A stretch of DNA of 54,894 nt. Origin: Achromobacter dolens (lineage in GTDB: Bacteria > Pseudomonadota > Gammaproteobacteria > Burkholderiales > Burkholderiaceae_B). A program made the translations under genes and the position numbers. This document shows positions 9,167 through 53,012 of this stretch, piece by piece; position 1 is the stretch's first letter; each line of letters begins with the position of its first letter. Under the pieces are notes generated by a model. It saw only the letters and a program-made list of their open reading frames with translations, was not told the origin of the DNA and searched no databases. Location of the stretch: assembly GCF_902859745.1 (NCBI RefSeq), contig NZ_CADIJW010000038.1, forward strand, positions 1 through 54,894. The letters are read 5' to 3'.

Positions 9167-10873
<1,707 letters not shown>

Positions 10874-11441: not shown

Positions 11442-12458
11442 CTACGGCATCGCCGCCGTGGCCGGCGCATGCTGGAAGGTGAAGCTGTCGGCGTACACGT
11501 GGTCGAGGCTGGCGCCGCGCCCCGCCAGCAGCGTGGTCGCCTCGCTGATCATCGCCGGCGCGCCGCACAGGTAGAAGGCGTGTTCGGACAGGTCGCCGTG
11601 GTCCGCCAGCACCGCCTGCTGCACGTGGCCGCGCCGGCCCTGCCAATCGGCGCCCGCGCGCGACAGCACCGGCACGAAATTGAACTCGTACAGGCGCCCG
11701 GCCCAGCCCGCGATCTGGTCGCGCAGATACAGGTCGGCCTCGGTCCGCATGCCCCAGTAGAGCGTCACCGGCGGGCAGTCGTCGTTGTCCAGCAACGATT
11801 CCAGGATCGCCTTGATCGGCGCGATGCCGGTGCCGGTGGCCATCATGATCATCGGCCGCCAATCTTCCTCGTGATAGCTGAACACGCCCAGCGGCGCCTC
11901 GATCTCGAGCGCCGCGCCCGGCCGCGCCTGCCCCAGCCACTGGTCGGTGTAGCGGCCGCCCGGAATGCGGCGCACGTGGAAATCCACCAGGTTGCCGGCG
12001 GGCGCCGAGGCCATCGAGAAGCTGCGGGTGGCGCCGTCGGGCAACACCACGTTCATGTACTGGCCCGGCGCGTAATCGAGCGGCGTGTCCGGCGGCAGCG
12101 CCAGCGTCAGGTGGATGACGTCGTCGCACAGCGCGGCGATGCGGTGCACGGTGGCGTCCAGGCGCCGCGGCTCGGCGAATTGGCGCGGGTTGGCGACGCT
12201 GATGCACAGATCGCTGCGCGGCCGCGCCTGGCAGGCCAGCGCATAGCCCTGGGCCGCCTCTTCCGGCGTCAGCGCCATCGGGAATTCTTCGTAGTCGACC
12301 GACCCTTCGGCCAGCTTGATGCGGCAGGTGCCGCAGCCTCCGAAGGTGCATTCGTGCGGCAGCCGCACCGAGGCGCGCTCGGCCGCCTGCAACACGGATT
12401 CATCCGGCGCGACCATGAAGGCCTGCCCGGTCTCGAGGATCTGGACACGGTATGCCAT
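11442..12458 (-). CDS. Ferredoxin-flavin-NAD(P)H reductase (oxygenase electron-transfer component)
   Basis: A 338-residue fusion of an N-terminal plant-type [2Fe-2S] domain (C37, C42, C45 and C76) with a ferredoxin-NADP reductase module: flavin motif R145-S-F-S148 and nicotinamide motif GTGIAP near residue 209, ending with the YLCGAPAMI stretch. This architecture is that of phenol hydroxylase and methane monooxygenase reductases and of CDP-6-deoxyglucoseen reductase. It would pass electrons from NAD(P)H to an oxygenase or to free ferredoxins. It is the last gene of the aldehyde dehydrogenase-GlcG-reductase unit, 11 bases after the GlcG-like gene. Within the same regulated cluster, its likely acceptors are the ferredoxins at 17909-18997. 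Confidence 0.9.
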   Translation of the reverse strand: MAYRVQILETGQAFMVAPDESVLQAAERASVRLPHECTFGGCGTCRIKLAEGSVDYEEFPMALTPEEAAQGYALACQARPRSDLCISVANPRQFAEPRRLDATVHRIAALCDDVIHLTLALPPDTPLDYAPGQYMNVVLPDGATRSFSMASAPAGNLVDFHVRRIPGGRYTDQWLGQARPGAALEIEAPLGVFSYHEEDWRPMIMMATGTGIAPIKAILESLLDNDDCPPVTLYWGMRTEADLYLRDQIAGWAGRLYEFNFVPVLSRAGADWQGRRGHVQQAVLADHGDLSEHAFYLCGAPAMISEATTLLAGRGASLDHVYADSFTFQHAPATAAMP

Positions 12459-12469
12459 GACGACAGCGC

Positions 12470-12949
12470 CTATTTCTTGATGTCCGCCTGCACCAGCACC
12501 TTCAGGCCGCGCGGCTCCAGCATTTCGGCCAACGCCCCCAGCGCGGCCAGGCCGGCCTGGGTGTCCTGCTCGCCGTTGCCGCCGCTCAGGCCCACGCCGC
12601 CGATGACCTCATCGTTGACCACGATGGGAAAGCCGCCCACGAACGCGGCGAACCTGCCTTCGAAGCTCCATTGGATGCCGAAGGCTTCGTTGCCGGGCAG
12701 CGCCGGCCCGTTGGGGGGGGTGGTGAACAGGTGCGTCGAGCGCTTGTGGCCGGCGGCGGTGAAGGCCTTGTTCCAGGCGATCTGCGGGCCGGTGATGCGG
12801 GCGCCGTCCATGCGCTCCAGCGCGATCGGATAGCCGCCGTCATCAACGATGCACACCGATTCCAGCACGCCGATCTGTTCCGAGCGAGCGATGGCGGCGC
12901 GCACCATGAGGCGCGCTTCTTCGAGTTCCAGCCGATAGATCTGCTTCAT
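12470..12949 (-). CDS. GlcG/HbpS family protein
   Basis: A 159-residue protein of the GlcG/HbpS (haem-degrading/haem-binding-like) family, recognised by LTLEEA-like RLELEEARLMVRAAI, VCIVDDGGYPIALERMDGA, AWNKAFTAAG and the glycine-rich VGGFPIVVNDEVIGGVGLSGG block. Members often sit in glycolate, propanediol and aromatic or alcohol oxidation operons with an uncertain accessory role; haem binding is shown for HbpS only. It lies 24 bases downstream of the aldehyde dehydrogenase and is probably co-transcribed. The coding strand contains a run of eight C (12713-12720), but the frame is intact. Confidence 0.85.
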   Translation of the reverse strand: MKQIYRLELEEARLMVRAAIARSEQIGVLESVCIVDDGGYPIALERMDGARITGPQIAWNKAFTAAGHKRSTHLFTTPPNGPALPGNEAFGIQWSFEGRFAAFVGGFPIVVNDEVIGGVGLSGGNGEQDTQAGLAALGALAEMLEPRGLKVLVQADIKK

Positions 12950-12973
12950 GTTGCTTGACTCCAGGTAGGGCCG

Positions 12974-14434
12974 TCAGCCTGCGCGGTAGACGGTCTTGAT
13001 CTGCGTGTAGAACTCCAGCCCGACCCGGCCCGATTCACGGAAGGTCGAGGTGCTGGAACTTTTCAGGCCGCCGAACGGCGCGTTGATGAGATTGCCGGTG
13101 GTGGTGCGGTTGATCTTGACGGTGCCGGCCTGGATGTCGCGCGCGAAGCGATGGGCGTAGCGCGCGTCGCTGGTGGCGATGGCGGCGGACAGGCCGTATT
13201 CGGTGTCGTTGGCGCAGGCGATGGCCTCGTCGTAGCCGTCCACCGCGATCAGCGCCAGCACCGGTCCGAAAATCTCCTCGCGCGCGATCCGCATCTGCTG
13301 CGTCACGTCGGTGAACAGGGCCGGCGTCACGTAATAGCCGCGCTCGAAGCCGGGACCGTCCAGGCGCTCGCCGCCGATCAGATGGGTGGCTTCCTGCTTG
13401 CCCAGCACGATGTAGCTCAGCACCGTGTCGAGTTGTTTACGGGTGGCCAGCGGACCCAGGTCGAAATTGCCCTCCAGGCCATTGCCGATGGTCAGCTTGG
13501 CCATGCGCGCCAGCAGCTTCTCGGTGAACGCCGCCAGCACCTTGCGGTCGACCAGCAGCCGGCTGGTGCCGGTGCAGGCCTGGCCGCTGAGCGAGAACCC
13601 GCCCTTGACCGCCAGGTCCACCGCGCGATCCAGGTCGGCGTCGGCCAGCACGATCAGCGGGTTCTTGCCGCCCAGCTCCATCTGCGTGCGCGTGGTCAGG
13701 CCGGCGCCGCGGTGGATCTGCTCGCCAGCGGCGGTCGAGCCGGTGAAGGAAATGGCGCGCACCGCCGGCGCCGTGGTGATGGCCTGGCCCACCTTCGAGG
13801 CCGGTCCCGTCACGAAATTCAGCACGCCCGGCGGCAGGCCCGCCTCGACCAGCGCCTGCGCCAGCCGGTAGCCGGACAGCGGCGCGTCCGACGACGGCTT
13901 GAACACCACGGTGTTGCCGGTGATCAGCGCGGGCGCGATCTTGCGCGCCGGAATCGAGATTGGGAAGTTCCACGGCGAGATCACCGTCACCACCCCCAGC
14001 GGCTCGCGCTGGCTGTAGACCACCATGTCCGGATCGTCGTTGACGAAGGTCTCGCCGGTGAACGACTGCCCTTCCACCGCGTAGAAACGCAGGGTCTGGG
14101 CCGAGCGCAGCACTTCGTCGCGCGCCAGCGCCAGCCCCTTGCCTTCCTCGCGGGTCAGTTCGCGCGCCACGCTGTCGGCGCGGTCCTCCAGCAGTTGCGC
14201 GGCGCGGAACAGGATGGCGGCGCGCTTGGAGATCGGCGTGTCGCGCCAGGCGGGAAAGGCGGTGGCGGCCGCCGCCACGGCGCGGGCGCCATCGGTGGCG
14301 TCCGATTGCTGGAACCGTCCCACCACGTCGGCGCTGTCGGCCGGGTTCAGGTTCGGCACTGTCGCGCCCGAGGCGCAGGCGACCCATTCGCCCCCGATGT
14401 GATTCAGAAATTCCTGCTGCGAAAGCTCGTCCAC
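12974..14434 (-). CDS. NAD(P)-dependent aldehyde dehydrogenase
   Basis: A 486-residue member of the aldehyde dehydrogenase superfamily. Visible marks: SPWNFPISIPARKIAPAL, the cofactor motif FTGSTAAGEQI, the general-base Glu in MELGGKNPL, the nucleophilic Cys in GQACTGTSRLLV, and the late EEIFGPVLALI segment. The GTG at 14434 is chosen because AAGGAAGGA ends five bases before it; an upstream in-frame start at 14503 would add unrelated residues. It leads the unit with the GlcG-like and reductase genes. About 65 bases upstream is the 14-mer also found before the diiron-enzyme gene (14497-14510). It probably oxidises an aldehyde formed by the cluster's oxygenase. Specificity is not deducible. Confidence 0.93.
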   Translation of the reverse strand: MDELSQQEFLNHIGGEWVACASGATVPNLNPADSADVVGRFQQSDATDGARAVAAAATAFPAWRDTPISKRAAILFRAAQLLEDRADSVARELTREEGKGLALARDEVLRSAQTLRFYAVEGQSFTGETFVNDDPDMVVYSQREPLGVVTVISPWNFPISIPARKIAPALITGNTVVFKPSSDAPLSGYRLAQALVEAGLPPGVLNFVTGPASKVGQAITTAPAVRAISFTGSTAAGEQIHRGAGLTTRTQMELGGKNPLIVLADADLDRAVDLAVKGGFSLSGQACTGTSRLLVDRKVLAAFTEKLLARMAKLTIGNGLEGNFDLGPLATRKQLDTVLSYIVLGKQEATHLIGGERLDGPGFERGYYVTPALFTDVTQQMRIAREEIFGPVLALIAVDGYDEAIACANDTEYGLSAAIATSDARYAHRFARDIQAGTVKINRTTTGNLINAPFGGLKSSSTSTFRESGRVGLEFYTQIKTVYRAG

Positions 14435-14496
14435 GGAAGTCCTTCCTTTGCCGGGCTGGCCGGGATGCCCGGAAATTGGCCGTCTGAGGTAATTTC

Positions 14497-14510
14497 TGAA
14501 CATTGTATAC
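14497..14510. promoter_or_regulatory. Shared operator-like site A (upstream of aldehyde dehydrogenase)
   Basis: The sequence tgaacattgtatac is identical, base for base, to the one at 19844-19857 before the diiron-enzyme operon. Distance to the start codon is similar in both places (63 and 53 bases). Read on the transcribed strand it gives GTATACAAT, which could overlap a -10 box. FadR-type GntR regulators commonly bind palindromes with a GTATAC or similar core, and such a regulator is encoded at 17122. Confidence 0.65.
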
Positions 14511-14551
14511 TTTAATCTAAATGATTCGATCCACGTAAACCCGAACCGGCC

Positions 14552-16084
14552 TCAATGCCAGATCAGCACGGCGCAGATCGTGGACACGAACAGCGCCAGC
14601 AGCACGGGCAGCAGCAGCGCCCGCACCAGCGACAGCACGTGGACCCGCGCGAACCCCGCCACCGCGATCAGCGACGACCAGGCGATCAGGGTGCCGCCCC
14701 CGGTCCACACCGCGCCCATCTGGCCCACCGCCGCCAGCGTCGCCGGATCCACCCCGACCACCGGCCCCAGCGCGCCCGACAGCGTGCCGGTCAACGGCAG
14801 GCCGGCGAAACCCGAACCGTCGATGCCGGTGATCATCCCCACCAGCAGCACGCCGAACGCCACCAGGAAATGGTTCTCCGGGATCAGGTGCTGGCCCGCC
14901 GAGATCACTTCGAACAACAGCCCGGGAGCCTGGGCCTGCGGCATGCCCAGGATCTGCGCGGCCGTCTCGTTGGCGCCGACGAAGAAGAAGCCGGCGATCG
15001 GCAGCACCGAGCCCATCGCCTTGAAGGCGAACACGAAGCCGTCGGTGACGTGCTCGGGGCAGACGTCCAGCATCTTGCGCGGCCCTTCGGCCGCCAGCGT
15101 CACCAGCATCATCACCACGAACGCCACGCCGCCCACCAGCGCCGCCGCGTCGCCGCCGCGCAGCGCAGGCAGCGACGGGAACAGCCGCGGCAGCACCATC
15201 ACCGCGATCACGCCCAGGAAGGCCAGCGGCGTCACCACCGCGAACACGCGCGACCAGCGCACCCGGCGCCGTTCCTCATCGTTCAGCCCCGGGCCGCGCG
15301 GCAGCGCCGGGTTCGCACCCATGGTGCCGCGCGCGAGTTCGGCCTTGTCGAACGATCCTGAGTGCTCGATCTCGGCCAGGCTGCCGTCCTGGGCGCGCGC
15401 CTGCCAGGCCGACAACAGGCCCGGGTCGGCCGGCACGATGTGCTTGCGCACCAGCAGGTACGCGACGGTCAACGCCACCGCGCCGGTGATCAGCGACAGC
15501 ACCAGCGCGCGGTCCGCCACCACCGCGGCGCTGACCGCGGCGCCCGCGGCCTTGGCGCTGATGCCGGGCGCCACGCCAATCACGTAGTCGGACGACAGCG
15601 CCATGCCCTGACCGGCGATGGCGATCGCCATGGCCCCCGCCAGCGGCGGCAGCCCGGCCGCGATGGCCGCCGGCAGCAGGATCGCCGAGACCAGGGGCAC
15701 CGCCGGCGTCGGCCAGAAGAACAGCGAGATCACATAGGTACAGAGGGCGATGATGAGGAACGACGAATGGCCGCCGCGCATCACCCGCCGGAACGGCTGC
15801 ACCATGCGCACGTCCGCCTGCAGCGTCTTGAGCGCATTGAGCAGGGCGGTCATGAAGGTGATGACCAGGAAGATGTTGAAAAGCTCTTTGGCGGCCACGA
15901 AGCTGGCCGAGAAGATGCCGATCAGCGCGCTGATCGGGTTGCCGGTGATGGCCAGCACCACCAGAAAGGTGCCGATGACCGACGGCACCACCACATTGGC
16001 CCGCAGGATCATCGTCAGGATGATGGCGGCGACGCTGACCAGGTACATCCAGTGAGCGGCGTTGAGGACGACGTCCGATTGCAT
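14552..16084 (-). CDS. Multi-spanning inner-membrane permease (ion-transporter-like)
   Basis: A 510-residue protein with roughly 12 hydrophobic segments and a central charged loop (about residues 225-275). The fold style, with two halves each having a small-residue-rich loop (FFWPTPAVPLVSAILLP and GITGIDGSGFAGLPLTGTLSG-like), recalls the ion transporter superfamily of carboxylate carriers. I cannot place it in a named family. It is transcribed alone, downstream of a GTATAC site at 16125-16133, between the aldehyde dehydrogenase unit and the TauE-like gene. It probably imports the substrate or an intermediate of the cluster. Confidence 0.75.
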   Translation of the reverse strand: MQSDVVLNAAHWMYLVSVAAIILTMILRANVVVPSVIGTFLVVLAITGNPISALIGIFSASFVAAKELFNIFLVITFMTALLNALKTLQADVRMVQPFRRVMRGGHSSFLIIALCTYVISLFFWPTPAVPLVSAILLPAAIAAGLPPLAGAMAIAIAGQGMALSSDYVIGVAPGISAKAAGAAVSAAVVADRALVLSLITGAVALTVAYLLVRKHIVPADPGLLSAWQARAQDGSLAEIEHSGSFDKAELARGTMGANPALPRGPGLNDEERRRVRWSRVFAVVTPLAFLGVIAVMVLPRLFPSLPALRGGDAAALVGGVAFVVMMLVTLAAEGPRKMLDVCPEHVTDGFVFAFKAMGSVLPIAGFFFVGANETAAQILGMPQAQAPGLLFEVISAGQHLIPENHFLVAFGVLLVGMITGIDGSGFAGLPLTGTLSGALGPVVGVDPATLAAVGQMGAVWTGGGTLIAWSSLIAVAGFARVHVLSLVRALLLPVLLALFVSTICAVLIWH

Positions 16085-16124
16085 GCGCTATTCCCCTTGT
16101 GACGTGGCTGTTGAATCGCCACTT

Positions 16125-16133
16125 CGGTATACT
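16125..16133. promoter_or_regulatory. Operator-like site C (upstream of permease)
   Basis: The sequence cggtatact lies 41 bases upstream of the permease ATG at 16084. On the transcribed strand it reads AGTATACCG, sharing the GTATACCG core with the sites at 16282 and 19844. It is one of a family of related motifs in front of each unit of the cluster. Confidence 0.5.
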
Positions 16134-16281
16134 ATATTTCGTCATGCGTCATACCAACCGAAATATGCATCGCCTAGGGAAACCGATAATTCTGAAATTT
16201 CGATGAATATTCGAGGAAAATCAGTGCATTAAGTTGGCGCATAAGCCCAATCTTGGTGCATGGGCGGTTTTTATTCAGACT

Positions 16282-16292
16282 ACGGTATACAA
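16282..16292. promoter_or_regulatory. Operator-like site D (upstream of TauE-like gene)
   Basis: Its reverse complement, ttgtataccgt, is an exact 11-base match to part of the site before the diiron-enzyme operon (19850-19860). It ends 14 bases before the ATG of the TauE-like gene, a position suited to repression, and it could control both that gene and the GntR gene downstream. Confidence 0.55.
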
Positions 16293-16306
16293 AAAGAGAC
16301 TGCTAC

Positions 16307-17044
16307 ATGCCCATCGCCGTTCCCGATCTCTGGCATTTCGCCGCCATGGCCGCGGTCGTCTTCGGCGCCGCGCTGGCGCAGGGCGTGGGCGGCATCGGCT
16401 TTGCCATGTTCGCCGCGCCGGTGGCGGCGCTGTGCTTTCCGCAGTTGGCGCCCGGCCCGCTGCTGACGCTGGGCGGCTTCATCTCGCTGCTGACCGCGCT
16501 GCGCGAACGCGGCGCGATCGACTGGCCGGCGGTCGGCTATGCCCTGACCGGGCGCGCCGCCGGCACCCTGATCGCCATCTACGCCATGGCGCGCTTCGCG
16601 CCGCAGGCGCTGGGCCTGCTGTTCGCCGCCATGATCCTGGCCGCCGTCGGACTCAGCGCCGCCGGCCTGCGCTTTGCCGCCACCCCCGGCCGGGTCTCGG
16701 GCGCCGGCGTGGCCTCGGGCATCATGGGCACCATGACCTCGGTGGGCGCCCCGCCGATTGCCCTGGTGTTGCAGCACGCCGAGCCGCCGCGGCTGCGCGC
16801 CACGCTGGGCATGGTGCTGTTCCTGGGGTCAATCTTCTCGCTGGCGATGCTGGCGCTGGCCGACCGCTACACCGGTTACCACGCCGCGCTGGCGCTCAGC
16901 CTGGCGCCGTTCCTGCTGGCCGGCTTCGCGGTTTCCGGCCGGCTGCGCTCGCGGCTGCCGCCGCGCGCGGTGCGCGCCGTGCTGCTGGCCGCCTGCGCCA
17001 TCGGCGCGCTCGGGGTGATCGCCAAGGCCCTGTGGCTCGGCTGA
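16307..17044 (+). CDS. TauE/SafE-family membrane transporter
   Basis: A 245-residue protein with about eight hydrophobic segments. The TauE/SafE repeats are visible in the N-terminal ALAQGVGGIGFAMFAAPVAAL and central GIMGTMTSVGAPPIALVLQ motifs. Family members export sulfite or sulfoacetate or carry small organic anions; most have no known substrate. The ATG at 16307 is preferred over an upstream start because the first membrane helix then begins normally and a purine-rich AAAAAGAGA stretch precedes it. It is followed by the GntR gene on the same strand. Its promoter holds one of the cluster's shared motifs. Confidence 0.82.
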   Translation: MPIAVPDLWHFAAMAAVVFGAALAQGVGGIGFAMFAAPVAALCFPQLAPGPLLTLGGFISLLTALRERGAIDWPAVGYALTGRAAGTLIAIYAMARFAPQALGLLFAAMILAAVGLSAAGLRFAATPGRVSGAGVASGIMGTMTSVGAPPIALVLQHAEPPRLRATLGMVLFLGSIFSLAMLALADRYTGYHAALALSLAPFLLAGFAVSGRLRSRLPPRAVRAVLLAACAIGALGVIAKALWLG

Positions 17045-17076
17045 CGCCACTCGCCAACACCGTCGACGCGCCGCCC

Positions 17077-17090
17077 GGTAATACAATGAA
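17077..17090. promoter_or_regulatory. Operator-like site F (upstream of gntR)
   Basis: The sequence ggtaatacaatgaa has the reverse complement TTCATTGTATTACC, a one-base-expanded form of the ATTGTATAC motif found before the other units. The flanks also give ATACA-N8-TGTAT as an inverted repeat (17081-17098). Its place just upstream of the regulator's probable start suggests autoregulation. Confidence 0.45.
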
Positions 17091-17121
17091 GACTGTATCC
17101 ATTCCGCCAGACCCGCTCGCC

Positions 17122-17838
17122 ATGACCACTTCGCCCGTCAGCTCGCAAGCCGTAGACATGCAGCAATCTGCTCCGCTGAAGATCGGCGAGCAGCACCCGC
17201 AGTTGTTCGCGGTCATCCGCGACAAGCTGCGCGAGCGCATCCTCAGCGGCGAATTCACGCCGGGCGACCGCCTGGTCGAAGGACGCCTGTCGGAGGAAAT
17301 GGGCGTGTCGCGCATCCCGGTGCGCGAAGCGCTGCGGGCGCTGGCCGCCGAAGGGCTGGTCACCATCGAGCCGCGCCGCGGCGCGTCGGTGTCGGTGCTG
17401 TCGGACGCGGTGGCCTACGACATGGTGGAAGTGCGCGCCACGCTGGAAGGCCTGAACGCCAAGCTGGCCGCGCAACGCCGCGACGACAAGACCGTCGAAC
17501 GCCTGCAGGCGTTCCTGCGCGAAGGCACCGAGGCCGCGCGCAGCGAGCAGTTGGACAAGTTCCTGGCGCTGAATTCGCAGTTCCACGAAATGCTGGCCAC
17601 CATCGGCGGCAACGTGGTGCTGACCGACCTGATGCGTTCGCTGCGCGACCGCACCGCGCTCTTGTTCGCCCCCAGCAACATGCACCGCGCCAAGCAGAAC
17701 TGGGACGAGCACTCGCAGATCCTGAACGCCGTCATCGCCGGCAACGGCGACCTGGCAGCGCTGCTGGCCAGCCAGCACGTGCACAACGCCGCCAAGGCCT
17801 ACACCGAGACGCGCCAGGCGCACTCGTCGGCCGCCTGA
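17122..17838 (+). CDS. GntR-family transcriptional regulator, FadR (FCD) subfamily
   Basis: A 238-residue regulator. The N-terminal winged helix-turn-helix is clear (LRERILSGEFTPGDRLVEGRLSEEMGVSRIPVREALRALAAEGLV), and the C-terminal all-helical FCD domain has metal- or ligand-site residues typical of the family (NSQFHEMLATIGGN, DEHSQILNAVIAGNGDLA, HVHNA). It probably senses the cluster's substrate or product and controls the five surrounding promoters, which share an ATTGTATAC-like motif. The start is uncertain: ATGs at 17086, 17122 and 17158 are all in frame and none has a good Shine-Dalgarno sequence. I chose 17122 because site F overlaps the first. It is convergent with the ferredoxin operon. 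Confidence 0.9.
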   Translation: MTTSPVSSQAVDMQQSAPLKIGEQHPQLFAVIRDKLRERILSGEFTPGDRLVEGRLSEEMGVSRIPVREALRALAAEGLVTIEPRRGASVSVLSDAVAYDMVEVRATLEGLNAKLAAQRRDDKTVERLQAFLREGTEAARSEQLDKFLALNSQFHEMLATIGGNVVLTDLMRSLRDRTALLFAPSNMHRAKQNWDEHSQILNAVIAGNGDLAALLASQHVHNAAKAYTETRQAHSSAA

Positions 17839-17908
17839 GCGCGGGCGCGGCACCCCGGCGCGTTCGCCGCCGCCCGACCGTTGCGATGTGGCGGCCAGCG
17901 CGCGACCG

Positions 17909-18259
17909 TCATGGCGCGGCGGGCGCCGCTTGCGCCGCCGCGTCCGTCACCACGCCCTTGCCGTCGCGCACCACCCACGACACGGCCACATCGCCCAGCA
18001 CAAAGGTCTGGCAAGCCATGCGATAGCCGGCCTCGAAGTCCTCGGGCCGCAGGTGCTTGCGTTCCTTGGGCTTGATGGCGTCGGTGTTCTCGATCCCCTG
18101 CTCGATGCGGCACTTGCAGGTGCCGCACAGGCCGCCGCCGCACTTGAAAGGAATGCCACCTTTTTCCTTCAGCGACACGCGCAGCAGATTGCTGTTCTCC
18201 GGGGCCTCGGCCACCTTGCCGCCATTCGATATAAACGTGATCTTGACCATGCTGCTCAT
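17909..18259 (-). CDS. [2Fe-2S] ferredoxin (plant type), Fd1
   Basis: A 116-residue ferredoxin with cluster cysteines C40, C45, C48 (CGGGLCGTC) and C83 (MACQ). The alanine-rich C-terminal tail beyond residue 100 is probably disordered. It is the last gene of the unit started by the diiron enzyme, and its ATG overlaps the stop of the small unknown gene by four bases, so the two are translationally coupled. It should carry electrons between the reductase at 11442 and the oxygenase. A second start three codons in (MVKITF) is possible. Confidence 0.9.
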   Translation of the reverse strand: MSSMVKITFISNGGKVAEAPENSNLLRVSLKEKGGIPFKCGGGLCGTCKCRIEQGIENTDAIKPKERKHLRPEDFEAGYRMACQTFVLGDVAVSWVVRDGKGVVTDAAAQAAPAAP

Positions 18260-18597
18260 TGCTCCGCGGCGACGCGGTCGGGATGCCGCGTCAGGGTGGT
18301 ATCGATGCTGCCGAAGCGGGTCAGGTGGATAAGCTCCTGGCGCGCGGCGTCCAGCGACGCGAAGGCCTCCAGGAACTTGGACGGCACCCGGTTCACCACA
18401 TAGGGCGGCGTTTCCTCGGTGACCACCAGCCGGCTCGGTCCGCGCAGCCGCGCGATGCTGAAGACGGCGCGCAGGCGGCCATCGCAGGCGTAGTCGTAGG
18501 TCTCGACGATCTCGGCCAGCGCGTCCGCCTCGGTGCGGTACACGCCCGGCTTGGACGTCAGAATCACGAACACGGCGTCATTCGCGTCGCGGGTCAT
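18256..18597 (-). CDS. Small conserved-looking protein of unknown function between two ferredoxins
   Basis: I do not recognise this 113-residue soluble protein. It begins MTRDANDAVFVILTSKPG, has mixed alpha/beta character (VFVILTS and RLRAVFSIARL strands, then a helix with FLEAFASLDAARQELIHL) and has no cysteine set for a cofactor. The only Cys is in YDYACDG. A good Shine-Dalgarno sequence (AAAGGAA, six bases) supports the ATG at 18597. It is wedged between two ferredoxin genes and overlaps one of them by four bases, so it is likely an oxygenase accessory, coupling or regulatory subunit. That role is inferred from context only. Confidence 0.8.
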   Translation of the reverse strand: MTRDANDAVFVILTSKPGVYRTEADALAEIVETYDYACDGRLRAVFSIARLRGPSRLVVTEETPPYVVNRVPSKFLEAFASLDAARQELIHLTRFGSIDTTLTRHPDRVAAEQ

Positions 18598-18658
18598 GCG
18601 GGGTTCCTTTGCGGATTGTGTTCGGGGAGGGCCTGGCGGCTGCCGCCGTGGACGACGG

Positions 18659-18997
18659 CTAGCGCTGCTCGGCGGCGGCAACGACCTCGCGCGGCGGCGC
18701 CGTCTCGACGTCCTGCCCCAGTTCGATATCGTGGTCGAGCCATAGCTGGCAGGCCAGCCGGTAACCCGCGTCGATGCGCTCGCCCAACTGCTTCTTTTCC
18801 TTCCAGTTCACCGGCGGCAGGTGTTCCCCCCCCGACAGCACGCGGCAGGCGCATTTGGCGCATTTGCCCATGCCGCATTCGTAACGCAGGTGCGGAAAGG
18901 GAAACTGCCGGATGCCGGCGCGCACCACCAGGTTGGCGTTGTCCGGCACCACCCCGGTATGGGTCTGGCCGTCTTTGTGGAATACGACGGTAGGCAT
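18659..18997 (-). CDS. [2Fe-2S] ferredoxin (plant type), Fd2
   Basis: A 112-residue ferredoxin with cysteines C41, C46, C49 (CGMGKCAKC) and C83 (LACQ), the same spacing as Fd1 but with otherwise low identity. Family members of this type often serve oxygenases and amine or thioether-oxidising systems. It lies 62 bases after the diiron-enzyme gene and 61 bases before the small unknown gene. Having two ferredoxins in one operon suggests either two successive electron transfers or one ferredoxin per partner. Confidence 0.9.
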   Translation of the reverse strand: MPTVVFHKDGQTHTGVVPDNANLVVRAGIRQFPFPHLRYECGMGKCAKCACRVLSGGEHLPPVNWKEKKQLGERIDAGYRLACQLWLDHDIELGQDVETAPPREVVAAAEQR

Positions 18998-19059
18998 GGA
19001 TCAGGTATCCGGTAGCGCCCGCCGCCGCCCGCGCGGGCGGACGGCGGCGGGCTGGGGAC

Positions 19060-19791
19060 TCAGGCGGCCAGGCCGAGCTCGGGCAGCGCGATTTCCTGCT
19101 GCACGTAGTCGGTATAGAGCGCGGTGGTGTAAAGCAGCCGCATCTGCGCGCCGATCTCGCAGATCTTCAGGCAGCGCTGCTGCAGCTCCACCGTGTTGGC
19201 GTGCTCCAGCACGATCTGGTAGCCGCGCTCGCCATGGATCTCGTCGGACACGATGTGCAGATCGAAGAACTCGACTTCCTCGTCGGTGAAGCCATATTTC
19301 TCGCGCAGGGTCGGCGTCTGCTTGCGGTAGATCGACGGCACCTGCGATTCCAGTCCCACCACCAGGCCGGCCACGGCCACGATCGGGTCTTCGCGCATCG
19401 CCACGGCGTAGCACCAGCTTTGCAGCGCTCGCGTGGTGGGCGACATGTTGTCCGGATTGGTGACCCGTTCGCGGGTGGTGCCGCAGGCCTCGGCGAAGCG
19501 GATCAGCAGGTCGGTATGGCGGTCGCCGCCAATTTCCTCTTCATACATGTTGGCCAGCAGAAAATCCTTGGCCTCGGTGTAGGTGTCAGGCGTGCGGGCG
19601 TACAGGTAGCCCAGGTAGTCGGCGAACGGGCCGACGTAGTGGTAGTGGTTCTCGGCCCAGCGCGACAGGTGTTCGCGGCTGAGCTTGCCTTCGGCCCAGG
19701 CGATCGAGAACGGCGAGGCATTGGCGCTCTTGCCCTTGATTGCGTTTTCCAACGCGGTACGGAATTCATCTCGGTTCATCAGTTCAGCCAT
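19060..19791 (-). CDS. Haem-oxygenase-like diiron enzyme (HDO; CADD/PqqC/TenA-like)
   Basis: A 243-residue helical protein of the haem-oxygenase-fold superfamily. All six positions that bind the two irons in CADD-type HDO enzymes are present with the family spacing: E85-x6-H92 (EEIGGDRH), E148 (GLESQVP), and H179-x3-D183-x2-H186 (HIVSDEIH). The aromatic WAENHYHYVGPF segment near residue 45 is also typical. HDO enzymes activate O2 for N-oxygenation, C-C cleavage, decarboxylation and similar reactions. PqqC lacks this ligand set, so a PqqC role is unlikely. GGAG six bases before the ATG supports the start. It heads the operon with two ferredoxins, and an exact 14-base operator-like site lies 53 bases upstream. 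The reaction and substrate are unknown. Confidence 0.88.
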   Translation of the reverse strand: MAELMNRDEFRTALENAIKGKSANASPFSIAWAEGKLSREHLSRWAENHYHYVGPFADYLGYLYARTPDTYTEAKDFLLANMYEEEIGGDRHTDLLIRFAEACGTTRERVTNPDNMSPTTRALQSWCYAVAMREDPIVAVAGLVVGLESQVPSIYRKQTPTLREKYGFTDEEVEFFDLHIVSDEIHGERGYQIVLEHANTVELQQRCLKICEIGAQMRLLYTTALYTDYVQQEIALPELGLAA

Positions 19792-19843
19792 GACACGCTC
19801 CAGGTCTGGTGAGGGAGGGGCGGCCGAAGTCTTCGACCGATTA

Positions 19844-19857
19844 TGAACATTGTATAC
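19844..19857. promoter_or_regulatory. Shared operator-like site B (upstream of diiron-enzyme operon)
   Basis: The sequence tgaacattgtatac is identical to 14497-14510 upstream of the aldehyde dehydrogenase operon. It continues with cgt, so that TTGTATACCGT (19850-19860) also matches the reverse complement of the site at 16282-16292. This makes it the best link among the motif copies. It is the probable binding site of the GntR regulator encoded at 17122. Confidence 0.65.
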
Positions 19858-19974
19858 CGTCTACCGTTTTGATCGACTAGGGTATTCCCGTTGCGGGTCG
19901 CCCATAAAAGGGACGGCCTCCTCTGGTATCAAGGACTTGGCGCCGGTTGCCACGGTTGGCGGCGAGGGCGACCG

Positions 19975-19988
19975 ACTGGTACAATGAA
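19975..19988. promoter_or_regulatory. Operator-like site E (upstream of small gene)
   Basis: The sequence actggtacaatgaa has the reverse complement TTCATTGTACCAGT, a weaker variant of the ATTGTATAC motif. It is 29 bases before the ATG of the small gene at 20017 and on the far side of the divergent gap from site B. Its lower similarity makes it the least certain of the six. Confidence 0.35.
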
Positions 19989-20016
19989 TACACTTTCAAT
20001 GCAATACGGAAATACC

Positions 20017-20226
20017 ATGACCACCCGCCATCCCCTGGGAGACGCCCCCATCGGCCAGCAGTTGCTGGCGCACTACGCCGGCCGCGATGCCGTGCGCCAT
20101 GCCACGCCCCTGTTCCCCTCGTCGTGGTCGGAATGCCTGGCGCCGTTCCGCAACGCCCGGCTGCGGCCGCAAGCCGCGCCGTCGGCCCAGGCCGACAAGC
20201 GCACCCCGGCCATCCAGCCGGGCTGA
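20017..20226 (+). CDS. Small protein of unknown function (69 residues)
   Basis: A short frame beginning MTTRHPLGDAPIGQQLLAHY and ending with a proline/alanine-rich tail. Nearly every codon ends in G or C, matching real genes of this genome, and GGAAA lies five bases before the ATG. An in-frame ATG at 19984 is possible but has a less GC-biased lead. It is divergent from the diiron-enzyme operon. No motif is recognised; one Cys (SSWSECLAPF) is present. A GGGGCGC/GCGCCCC hairpin (20270-20288) lies about 45 bases past the stop. Confidence 0.55.
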   Translation: MTTRHPLGDAPIGQQLLAHYAGRDAVRHATPLFPSSWSECLAPFRNARLRPQAAPSAQADKRTPAIQPG

Positions 20227-51769: not shown

Positions 51770-52840
51770 TCAGTCCTTGAGCAGCGCCGGGTTGACGCGG
51801 GCCGCGGCCTGCGCGGCGGCCTGGCGGCCACGCACCAGTTCGAACAGATTCTTCGGATCGGCCAGTCTCGGCGCCACTTCCACGCGGGTGCCGATGCCAT
51901 GCTTGACTGCGCTGTCGCGCAGCCAGCGCAGGGCCGAGAAGTCCTCGAGCGCGAAACCGACGGAGTCGAACACGGTGATGTCGTGATCGCCCTGCCGGCC
52001 GGCGCTCTGGCCCGTCAGCACGCGCCACAACTCGGTCACTGCGAAGTCGGCGGGCATCTGCTGCAGGTCGCCCTCGATGCGCGTCTGCGGCTCGTATTCG
52101 ACGAATACCGGCCCGGCCCGCAGCACGTCGGCGTGCAGCTCGGTCTTGCCCGGGCAGTCGCCTCCCACGGCGTTGATGTGCATGCCCGGCTCGATCATGT
52201 CGACGGTCAGGATGGTGGCATAGGCCTTGTCGGCCGTCACCGTGGTCACGATGTCCGCGCCCTTGGCGGCGGCGGCGGTGCTGTCGAAGCGTCGCAGTCG
52301 CAGGCCGGGCACGCCGGCCAGATTGCGCTCGAGCTTGTCGGTGGCGGCCGGGTCGACGTCATACAGATGCAACGTGTCGATGCCGAGAATGTGATGGAAC
52401 GCCAGCGCCTGGAATTCGCTTTGCGCGCCGTTGCCGATCAACGCCATGCTGCGCGAGCCCGGACGAGCCAGGGCGCGGGCGGCCAGCGCCGACGTGGCGG
52501 CGGTGCGCAGCGCCGTGGTCAACGTCAGTTCGCTGATCAGCAGCGGTTCGCCGGTGTTGACCTGCGCCAGCGCGCCAAAGGCCATCACGGTGCTCAAACC
52601 GGCCGCCGGATTGCCAGGATGGCCGTTGACATACTTGAAGCTGTAAAGATCGTTGTCGGCCGTGGGCATCAGTTCGATCACGCCGGTCGCCGAATGGCTG
52701 GCGACGCGCGCGCTCTTGTCGAACTCCTGCCAGCGCAGGAAATCGGCCAGCAGATAATCCAGCAGATCTTCGAATACCTTGCGCGGGCCCTGTGCGGCCA
52801 CGATCTTCGCGACGTCGGTGGTGGTGAGCAGTGTCGTCAT
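51770..52840 (-). CDS. Ornithine cyclodeaminase/mu-crystallin family enzyme
   Basis: A 356-residue NAD(P)-binding protein. The Rossmann motif is MALIGNGAQSEFQALAF, with family stretches FKYVNGHPGNPAAGLSTVMAF and GMHINAVGGDCPGKTELHADVL. Members convert ornithine to proline or act as ketimine reductases, alanine dehydrogenases or opine-type enzymes. The ATG at 52840 has AGGGG upstream. It lies alone between convergent and divergent neighbours; exact substrate unknown. Confidence 0.9.
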   Translation of the reverse strand: MTTLLTTTDVAKIVAAQGPRKVFEDLLDYLLADFLRWQEFDKSARVASHSATGVIELMPTADNDLYSFKYVNGHPGNPAAGLSTVMAFGALAQVNTGEPLLISELTLTTALRTAATSALAARALARPGSRSMALIGNGAQSEFQALAFHHILGIDTLHLYDVDPAATDKLERNLAGVPGLRLRRFDSTAAAAKGADIVTTVTADKAYATILTVDMIEPGMHINAVGGDCPGKTELHADVLRAGPVFVEYEPQTRIEGDLQQMPADFAVTELWRVLTGQSAGRQGDHDITVFDSVGFALEDFSALRWLRDSAVKHGIGTRVEVAPRLADPKNLFELVRGRQAAAQAAARVNPALLKD

Positions 52841-53012
52841 TATTTTCCCCTGATGTTTCGGTACAGAAATTCTGTCCGATGCCCAGGTCAATGCCTAGCG
52901 CCCACTTTCCACACAAAATGCAAGGAAGCTGCCATTCTGGCAACGGTCGATGCCACTTGTCGCAATCCGGCCGCGGCGCTGCTGGTAATCCCTGATATGC
53001 CGCGATCTGCGC

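Follow-up and report, generated by a model that had tools for sequence, protein, structure and literature searches.

What does a haem-oxygenase-fold dimetal enzyme of the HDO family do when it is encoded among ferredoxins, a reductase, an aldehyde dehydrogenase, permeases and a regulator? The question is raised by a gene cluster in a stretch of 54,894 bases, contig C38 of a 6.29-Mb Achromobacter genome (below, the window; G, C and L numbers denote genomes, contigs and loci, and G000 is the window's own genome). The cluster is a real, conserved oxidative system around HDO, and its genes are apparently co-regulated. Going further, and with some reserve, we consider it probable from sequence comparison that this is an inducible catabolic regulon centred on a multicomponent, O2-dependent HDO oxygenase. 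The components are as follows.

19060..19791, minus strand: HDO, haem-oxygenase-fold dimetal enzyme, 243 aa (Pfam Haem_oxygenas_2, 134 bits)
18659..18997, minus strand: Fd1, [2Fe-2S] ferredoxin, 112 aa, C-x4-C-x2-C-x33-C (Pfam Fer2, cysteine spacing)
18256..18597, minus strand: U113, 113-aa orphan between the ferredoxins, proposed accessory or effector protein (without Pfam match)
17909..18259, minus strand: Fd2, [2Fe-2S] ferredoxin, 116 aa, C-x4-C-x2-C-x34-C (Pfam Fer2, cysteine spacing)
17086..17838, plus strand: FadR-type (GntR/FCD) regulator, 250 aa (Pfam GntR, 75 bits; FCD, 90 bits)
16307..17044, plus strand: TauE/SafE permease, 245 aa (Pfam TauE)
14552..16084, minus strand: PERM, 510-aa polytopic membrane protein of no named family (no family match above cut-off)
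12974..14434, minus strand: ALDH, aldehyde dehydrogenase near the alpha-ketoglutaric-semialdehyde/betaine-aldehyde group (Pfam Aldedh, 546 bits)
12470..12949, minus strand: GlcG/HbpS-like protein, 159 aa (Pfam HbpS-like, 108 bits)
11442..12458, minus strand: RED, 2Fe-2S/FAD/NAD(P)H reductase, 338 aa, BenC-like architecture (Pfam Fer2, FAD_binding_6, NAD_binding_1)
19984..20226, plus strand: small orphan open reading frame (ORF) divergent from HDO, candidate member, provisional start within ORF 19891-20226 (tblastn relatives)
14505..14510, no strand: GTATAC core, ALDH promoter (preceding ALDH in 24 of 25 loci from Achromobacter)
16127..16132, no strand: GTATAC core, PERM/TauE divergent promoter (motif search)
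16285..16290, no strand: GTATAC core, PERM/TauE divergent promoter (motif search)
19852..19857, no strand: GTATAC core, HDO promoter (preceding HDO in all 26 Achromobacter loci and in 49 of the 57 others)

The ten genes named in the initial annotation are open frames at or near the coordinates given there, and eight of the ten proteins exceed the Pfam cut-offs for the families it assigned. Thus its observation of the gene set is confirmed; its interpretation is partly supported by the comparisons below. Since the FadR-type and TauE genes lie on the plus strand and the other eight on the minus strand, the genes are not one single operon.

The HDO enzyme

The Haem_oxygenas_2 score of HDO compares with a cut-off of 28.9 bits. 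In an alignment to the structures 1rcw and 8va9, at positions that we take to be the ligand numbers of CADD, the enzyme has E85, H92, E148, H179, D183 and H186, that is, a set of three histidines and three carboxylates. At each of the six positions the residue is conserved in 98% or more of 76 aligned rows, comprising the window's HDO and those of the loci described below after removal of duplicates. The closest solved structures are the p-aminobenzoate synthases 9pj4, 1rcw and 8va9 (E about 1e-17), followed by PqqC.

Two known identities were considered and rejected. The self-sacrifice residues of CADD are Tyr27 and Lys152 (PMC11965152), and the corresponding positions, read from the alignment, are Ser29 and Gln158 here; moreover, the TIGR04305 score is 100.1 bits against a cut-off of 200. 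This argues against a self-sacrificing p-aminobenzoate synthase of the CADD/NePabS kind, which the window enzyme resembles in the six ligand positions and as its closest solved structures, and from which it differs in the sacrificial pair. PqqC was rejected with a TIGR02111 score of 52.9 bits, the cut-off being 240. Hence, by its ligand set and family, the enzyme is predicted to be an HDO that is neither a p-aminobenzoate synthase nor PqqC. Binding of two metals and activation of O2 are predicted.

The HDO proteins of Achromobacter insuavis and A. ruhlandii are 100% identical to that of the window, and those outside the genus 86–93% (79 best loci). In six compared loci the HDO proteins are 88–93% identical and the 4-fold degenerate sites of the gene 55–69% identical, the latter being at the upper end of the range for neighbouring genes (31–71%). 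As the protein is conserved while its 4-fold degenerate sites drifted, HDO is under strong constraint. Among eight compared proteins it is the most constrained one, and U113 (40–48%) the least.

Joint inheritance of the cluster genes

A scan of genome contigs for HDO relatives produced 494 stretches, the best 80 of which were kept and gave 79 loci. Four of six plasmid matches were added (the other two were left out), making 83 loci, 26 from Achromobacter and 57 from elsewhere, with flanks of about 10 kb on each side, 15 kb for plasmids, and shorter ones at contig ends. Best matches of Fd1 or Fd2 below 50% identity and of RED below 45% were not counted. Fd1, U113 and Fd2 are each present in the flanks of 81 of the 83 loci, among them all 26 of Achromobacter; the counts for the other genes are 81 (FadR), 80 (GlcG), 77 (PERM), 73 (ALDH, two of these at only 46–47% identity), 68 (RED) and 56 (TauE). 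Gene order and orientation vary between genera. The neighbouring gene Usp is found in 24 loci, all of them from Achromobacter, hence the linkage of the cluster genes is not passive. The two ferredoxin-less loci are L073, where the contig ends 538 bases before HDO, and L072 (the same contig position as G197), where the ferredoxins are about 64 kb away. The genes are therefore kept together in relatives, over a wide range of soil bacteria, and the initial annotation, which would have been refuted by a lack of joint conservation, was not refuted on this point. Cupriavidus metallidurans CH34 (L111) is among the carriers of the cluster. In Cupriavidus basilensis KF708, one locus (L062:5900-6694 and 9938-10732) contains HDO and PERM twice each and looks like a fusion of two cluster versions.

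Presence and absence were compared in a panel of 268 genomes of the family. HDO and U113 are found in 76 genomes each, from the same 16 genera: 75 genomes have both, one has only HDO (G238), one has only U113 (G179, 72% complete), and 191 have neither (Fisher test, 1e-64, with relatedness not corrected). Orthologs of RED, defined by at least 51% identity, with paralogs falling at 43% or less, are present in 74 of the 76 HDO-positive and in one of the 192 HDO-negative genomes, so that two genomes have only HDO, one has only RED and 191 have neither. The two genes for HDO and U113 are retained even when they are unlinked, as in G197 and in G083 (where about 0.5 Mb separates them, assuming a circular contig), and when they are on different contigs, as in G129. 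This joint inheritance of HDO, U113 and RED backs the dedicated electron chain proposed in the initial annotation. Pairwise distance correlations between the cluster proteins were uninformative. HDO is present in 42 of 43 genomes of the same genus, own included; in a phylum-wide sample of 398 genomes, four (own included) have the close HDO family, at 88% identity or more, and G406 has a relative at 45%.

U113 has no match above cut-off in Pfam or NCBIfam; the Fer2 scores of the two ferredoxins flanking it are 36 and 49 bits. Its AlphaFold model (mean pLDDT 82, pTM 0.77) has six strands and one main helix, and U113 is thus modelled as a beta-rich domain. Foldseek comparison of the model with the PDB gave no matches at E ≤ 0.001, the best TM-score among the 50 listed being 0.35, which does not prove a new fold. 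The single cysteine and the two histidines fall short of 90% conservation, hence no metal cofactor is expected. Being encoded between the ferredoxins and co-inherited with HDO, U113 suggests itself as the candidate for an effector or coupling role.

A sister family, 42–45% identical to the window HDO, is widespread in the order to which G406 belongs, with a match at E ≤ 1e-30 in 32 of 76 genomes; three of these (G671, G682 and G703) are of the window type. All twelve sister loci examined have GlcG and a FadR-type gene, an association that extends what the initial annotation had seen in the window. In none of the twelve is there a match to Fd1, U113 or Fd2 at E ≤ 1e-6, although two of these loci, L163 and L172, stop short. 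Ten of the twelve fetched stretches contain a 277-aa protein in which a Rieske motif was recognised by eye; in L126 (8929-9762) this protein is adjacent to the sister HDO and divergent from it. At least two GTATAC sites are situated near the HDO gene in all twelve sister loci, in ten of them exactly 52 bp apart. The three window-type loci of this order contain Fd1, U113, Fd2 and PERM and yield no ALDH or RED match. Since the sister HDO is without the set of ferredoxins and U113, and in most cases has a Rieske-like protein in its vicinity, the stable core is HDO–GlcG–FadR, and the electron module appears exchangeable. One sister HDO is tandemly duplicated (G726:C18:17550-19071, L166), the identity of the two copies to the protein of G406 being 74% and 83%.

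The GTATAC palindrome and the candidate regulon

The shared promoter motifs mentioned in the initial annotation are well founded: GTATAC occurs six times in the window, and four of the six sites are at cluster promoters. The HDO and ALDH sites share an identical 14-mer, TGAACATTGTATAC. Upstream regions were defined as 250 bp before HDO, ALDH, PERM, TauE, Fd1 and FadR. In the 26 Achromobacter loci there are 109 sites in 35,281 bp of cluster upstream regions and 27 in 465,696 bp elsewhere; in the other 57 loci the respective figures are 207 in 70,120 bp and 110 in 1,066,000 bp. The upstream density is thus about 53-fold and 29-fold higher, respectively. Outside Achromobacter the site precedes HDO in 49 of 57 loci, PERM in 51 of 51 and FadR in 38 of 55. 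GTATAC occurrences before ALDH outside Achromobacter (10 of 48) were not taken as operators, as several are, by sequence, inside the end of the HDO gene.

A longer pattern, WYNGTATACNRW, has 11 sites genome-wide against three for the reversed control, three of the 11 are in the cluster, and one precedes the importer operon on contig C14 described below; the ALDH site at 14505 does not fit the pattern. The other sites (contigs C1, C2, C29, C47 and C59) were read and not assigned to this regulon. Among the palindromes of the own genome, one (G000:C59:25939, L195) is upstream of an allantoinase-like gene, and others (G000:C47:33257-33558, L194) are situated around another GntR gene beside an amidohydrolase, all names being given by eye; these are perhaps operators of other GntR regulators.

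The more independent parts of the operator test are the sister family and two groups of loci at which the operator marks importer and amidohydrolase operons, beyond what the initial annotation covered. One is an unlinked operon in the own genome (G000:C14:51600-55200, L196), encoding an ABC importer, its SsuA/NMT1-like binding protein and an isochorismatase-family hydrolase, with a GTATAC site upstream, at G000:C14:55187. The binding protein (E ≤ 1e-80) is found in 50 of the 76 HDO-positive and in one of the 192 HDO-negative family genomes, and G025, the only Achromobacter genome without HDO, also lacks it. A single GTATAC is at the matching place in 30 of 30 binding-protein loci (the best 30 of 51, all from Achromobacter). 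In the accessory-gene counts, for which matches below 38% identity or covering less than half of the query were left out, relatives of the importer and isochorismatase are linked to the HDO cluster in eight of the 57 non-Achromobacter loci, and seven of the eight linked binding-protein genes have the site. The other group is an amidase–MFS operon of Cupriavidus and Paraburkholderia with GTATAC within 350 bp in 21 of 21 cases, at -83 to -92 in the ten examples printed. The site was not found upstream of MFS (0 of 21), GGT (0 of 8) or isochorismatase (0 of 8), which is what genes internal to an operon would be expected to show. Because the palindrome marks both the cluster promoters and the unlinked importer/isochorismatase operon, the two probably form one regulon, likely regulated through this palindrome by the FadR-type protein.

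A gene of the ornithine cyclodeaminase (OCD) family is present in 41 of the 57 non-Achromobacter loci. The own genome has three OCD-family genes, none of which was accepted as an ortholog: those at 51770-52891 of the window, distinct from the cluster-type OCD, and on contig C2 are 30–31% identical over partial length, and the one on C17 has no match to cluster-type OCD at E ≤ 1e-4. The nearest PDB relative of the isochorismatase is RutB; those of the amidase are ClbL and urethanases, that of the GGT-like protein is an entry named cephalosporin acylase, and that of OCD is 3hdj, named probable ornithine cyclodeaminase. Substrate inference from these relatives had no outcome. Still, the accessory hydrolase families (isochorismatase, amidase, GGT) belong to amide-hydrolysing groups, which together with the OCD-family gene suggests, at low confidence, that the substrate may be nitrogen-containing or acyl-linked.

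Several gene calls were refined. The palindrome overlaps the first ATG of ALDH, hence GTG 14434 is the more likely start, rather than 14503; for TauE, ATG 16307 is more likely than the earlier call. ALDH scores 544 bits with NCBIfam NF042993, under its cut-off of 770, and its best PDB relative is betaine aldehyde dehydrogenase. PERM has no match above cut-off in Pfam or NCBIfam; a single-sequence comparison with the PDB gave two weak matches (E 0.31 and 0.68) and a profile gave none, and its model is all-helical (pLDDT 75.6). Position 20226, where the initial annotation ended the cluster, is the end of the small plus-strand ORF (19891-20226), which it did not name. All 26 Achromobacter loci and 29 of the 57 others contain a relative of this ORF (tblastn, E ≤ 0.001), which outside Achromobacter is situated at other places of the cluster.

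Proposed function and alternatives

In the mechanism that we propose, RED would take electrons from NAD(P)H and pass them via Fd1 and/or Fd2 to the dimetal site of HDO; U113 would act, without a cofactor of its own, in coupling or as an effector, and GlcG would be an accessory protein to HDO. The substrate may be a small carboxylic acid, amino acid or amine, either imported directly by PERM or freed inside the cell from an amide or ester precursor by one of several exchangeable modules: the ABC importer with the isochorismatase hydrolase, the amidase with MFS, or a GGT-type hydrolase. The least supported step is the last one, in which HDO would yield an aldehyde or imine that ALDH and, in many genera, an OCD-family reductase would remove.

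A number of observations weigh against this reading. ALDH is absent near HDO in 10 of the 83 loci and RED in 15, several of these loci being cut by contig ends. Thus the dehydrogenase and the reductase, which the initial annotation counted among the parts, are frequent but not everywhere obligatory as linked parts, and the aldehyde step is not universal or is supplied elsewhere; oxidation of a presumed aldehyde product by ALDH is not supported as it was stated. G238 has HDO, Fd1 and Fd2 and no room for U113, which is thus not indispensable. None of the 26 Achromobacter loci has OCD in its fetched flanks, and only 10 of the 41 OCD genes have an upstream GTATAC. As for the operator, outside Achromobacter it precedes Fd1 in only 12 of 55 loci and TauE in 21 of 30, and the unlinked ferredoxin stretches of G083 and G129 are without it. 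Upstream DNA is AT-richer than coding DNA, so that the enrichment is partly compositional, and both the design of the operator test and the choice of upstream regions came after the window had been seen. Binding of the FadR-type protein to the site is itself inferred, and the proposed substrate and product, like the mechanism as a whole, are deduced from sequence.

Given that p-aminobenzoate synthases and PqqC are its nearest relatives of solved structure, and that a 2026 review treats the HDO family as natural-product biosynthetic (PMC13108848), HDO could instead make a cofactor or metabolite, by analogy with p-aminobenzoate, PQQ or natural products. We consider this unlikely: the replacement of CADD Tyr27 and Lys152 by Ser29 and Gln158 and the far-missed CADD and PqqC cut-offs speak against it, and two permeases, the importer/hydrolase operon and a FadR-type gene with the common site fit uptake and use. 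The ferredoxins and U113 might also serve another enzyme, for instance the neighbouring OCD-family protein, with HDO working alone. Indeed, the unlinked halves in G197 and G083 have the ferredoxins beside OCD and away from HDO, and OCD is beside Fd2 in some linked loci (L055, L178 and L181). However, enzymes of the OCD family use NAD(P)H directly, Fd1, U113 and Fd2 lie near HDO in every one of the 26 Achromobacter loci, whose fetched flanks contain no OCD, and 75 of the 77 family genomes with either HDO or U113 have both; such a division of labour seems improbable.

Just as improbable, in our estimate, is a stress or detoxification system directed at a toxic amine, an aldehyde or reactive oxygen species, rather than at a nutrient. 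TauE/SafE proteins can export, which would suit it. So would the HDO-domain protein DtpC, which guards Acinetobacter against desiccation (PMC13232832). Against it, the importers and amidohydrolases bear the same GTATAC site, and the cluster has a regulator of FadR/GntR type. Among known systems, the main one considered was Dirammox (dnf), the ammonia oxidation of Alcaligenes, a genus that the searched family probably includes (a guess). Like the present cluster, dnfABC pairs a diiron oxygenase with a 2Fe-2S/FAD reductase. The diiron family and the gene set are different, however: DnfA is AurF/CmlI-like, and the dnf cluster has aminotransferase-type proteins, a hydroxymethyltransferase, a glutamine amidotransferase and a pyridoxal kinase (PMC9136411, PMC9478400). 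As the ten cluster proteins match none of the dnf families, Dirammox was rejected as highly improbable.

With a catabolic HDO oxygenase as the preferred reading, the closest precedent is MboAB. MboA, an HDO of mangotoxin biosynthesis, needs the dedicated NAD(P)H/flavin/Fe2S2 reductase MboB, possibly the first dedicated HDO–redox partner pair according to its authors (PMC13185094). In both cases HDO adjoins a reductase of the same make-up; unlike the present system, MboAB is biosynthetic, and the available part of that paper describes one redox partner (PMC13185094). The Achromobacter cluster adds to this two ferredoxins, U113, GlcG, ALDH, the permeases and the FadR-type regulator. Benzoate dioxygenase with BenC and soluble methane monooxygenase with MmoB/MmoC are similar in another respect, as RED has the BenC/MmoC architecture and a small protein without an evident cofactor motif is encoded beside the electron carriers. 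The difference is that the oxygenase component here is a haem-oxygenase-fold HDO; U113, considered as a possible effector of the MmoB type, gave no significant fold match in the PDB (Foldseek, E ≤ 0.001).

Among the papers listed by literature searches, whose scope included few subscription papers and preprints, we recognised none that describes this cluster. About a dozen HDOs have been functionally validated so far, and the 2026 review, in its available part, casts the family as one of natural-product biosynthesis whose studied members need no protein effector (PMC13108848); the word "ferredoxin" does not occur in its main text. Against this background a bolder reading may be offered, although only tentatively: HDO may be a true multicomponent oxygenase, whose dimetal site is fed and gated by a reductase, two ferredoxins and U113 as a cofactor-free effector of undescribed fold. 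It would belong to a catabolic regulon of wide distribution for the degradation of a common small acid or amine in amide or ester linkage, the electron module being swapped between ferredoxin/U113 and Rieske-like versions and the HDO–GlcG–FadR core kept. If true, this would be the first HDO working as a multicomponent oxygenase. The cluster is a directly testable system, and a conserved HDO accompanied by a reductase, a pair of ferredoxins, a candidate effector and uptake genes that bear the operator would add nutrient breakdown to the roles of the family.

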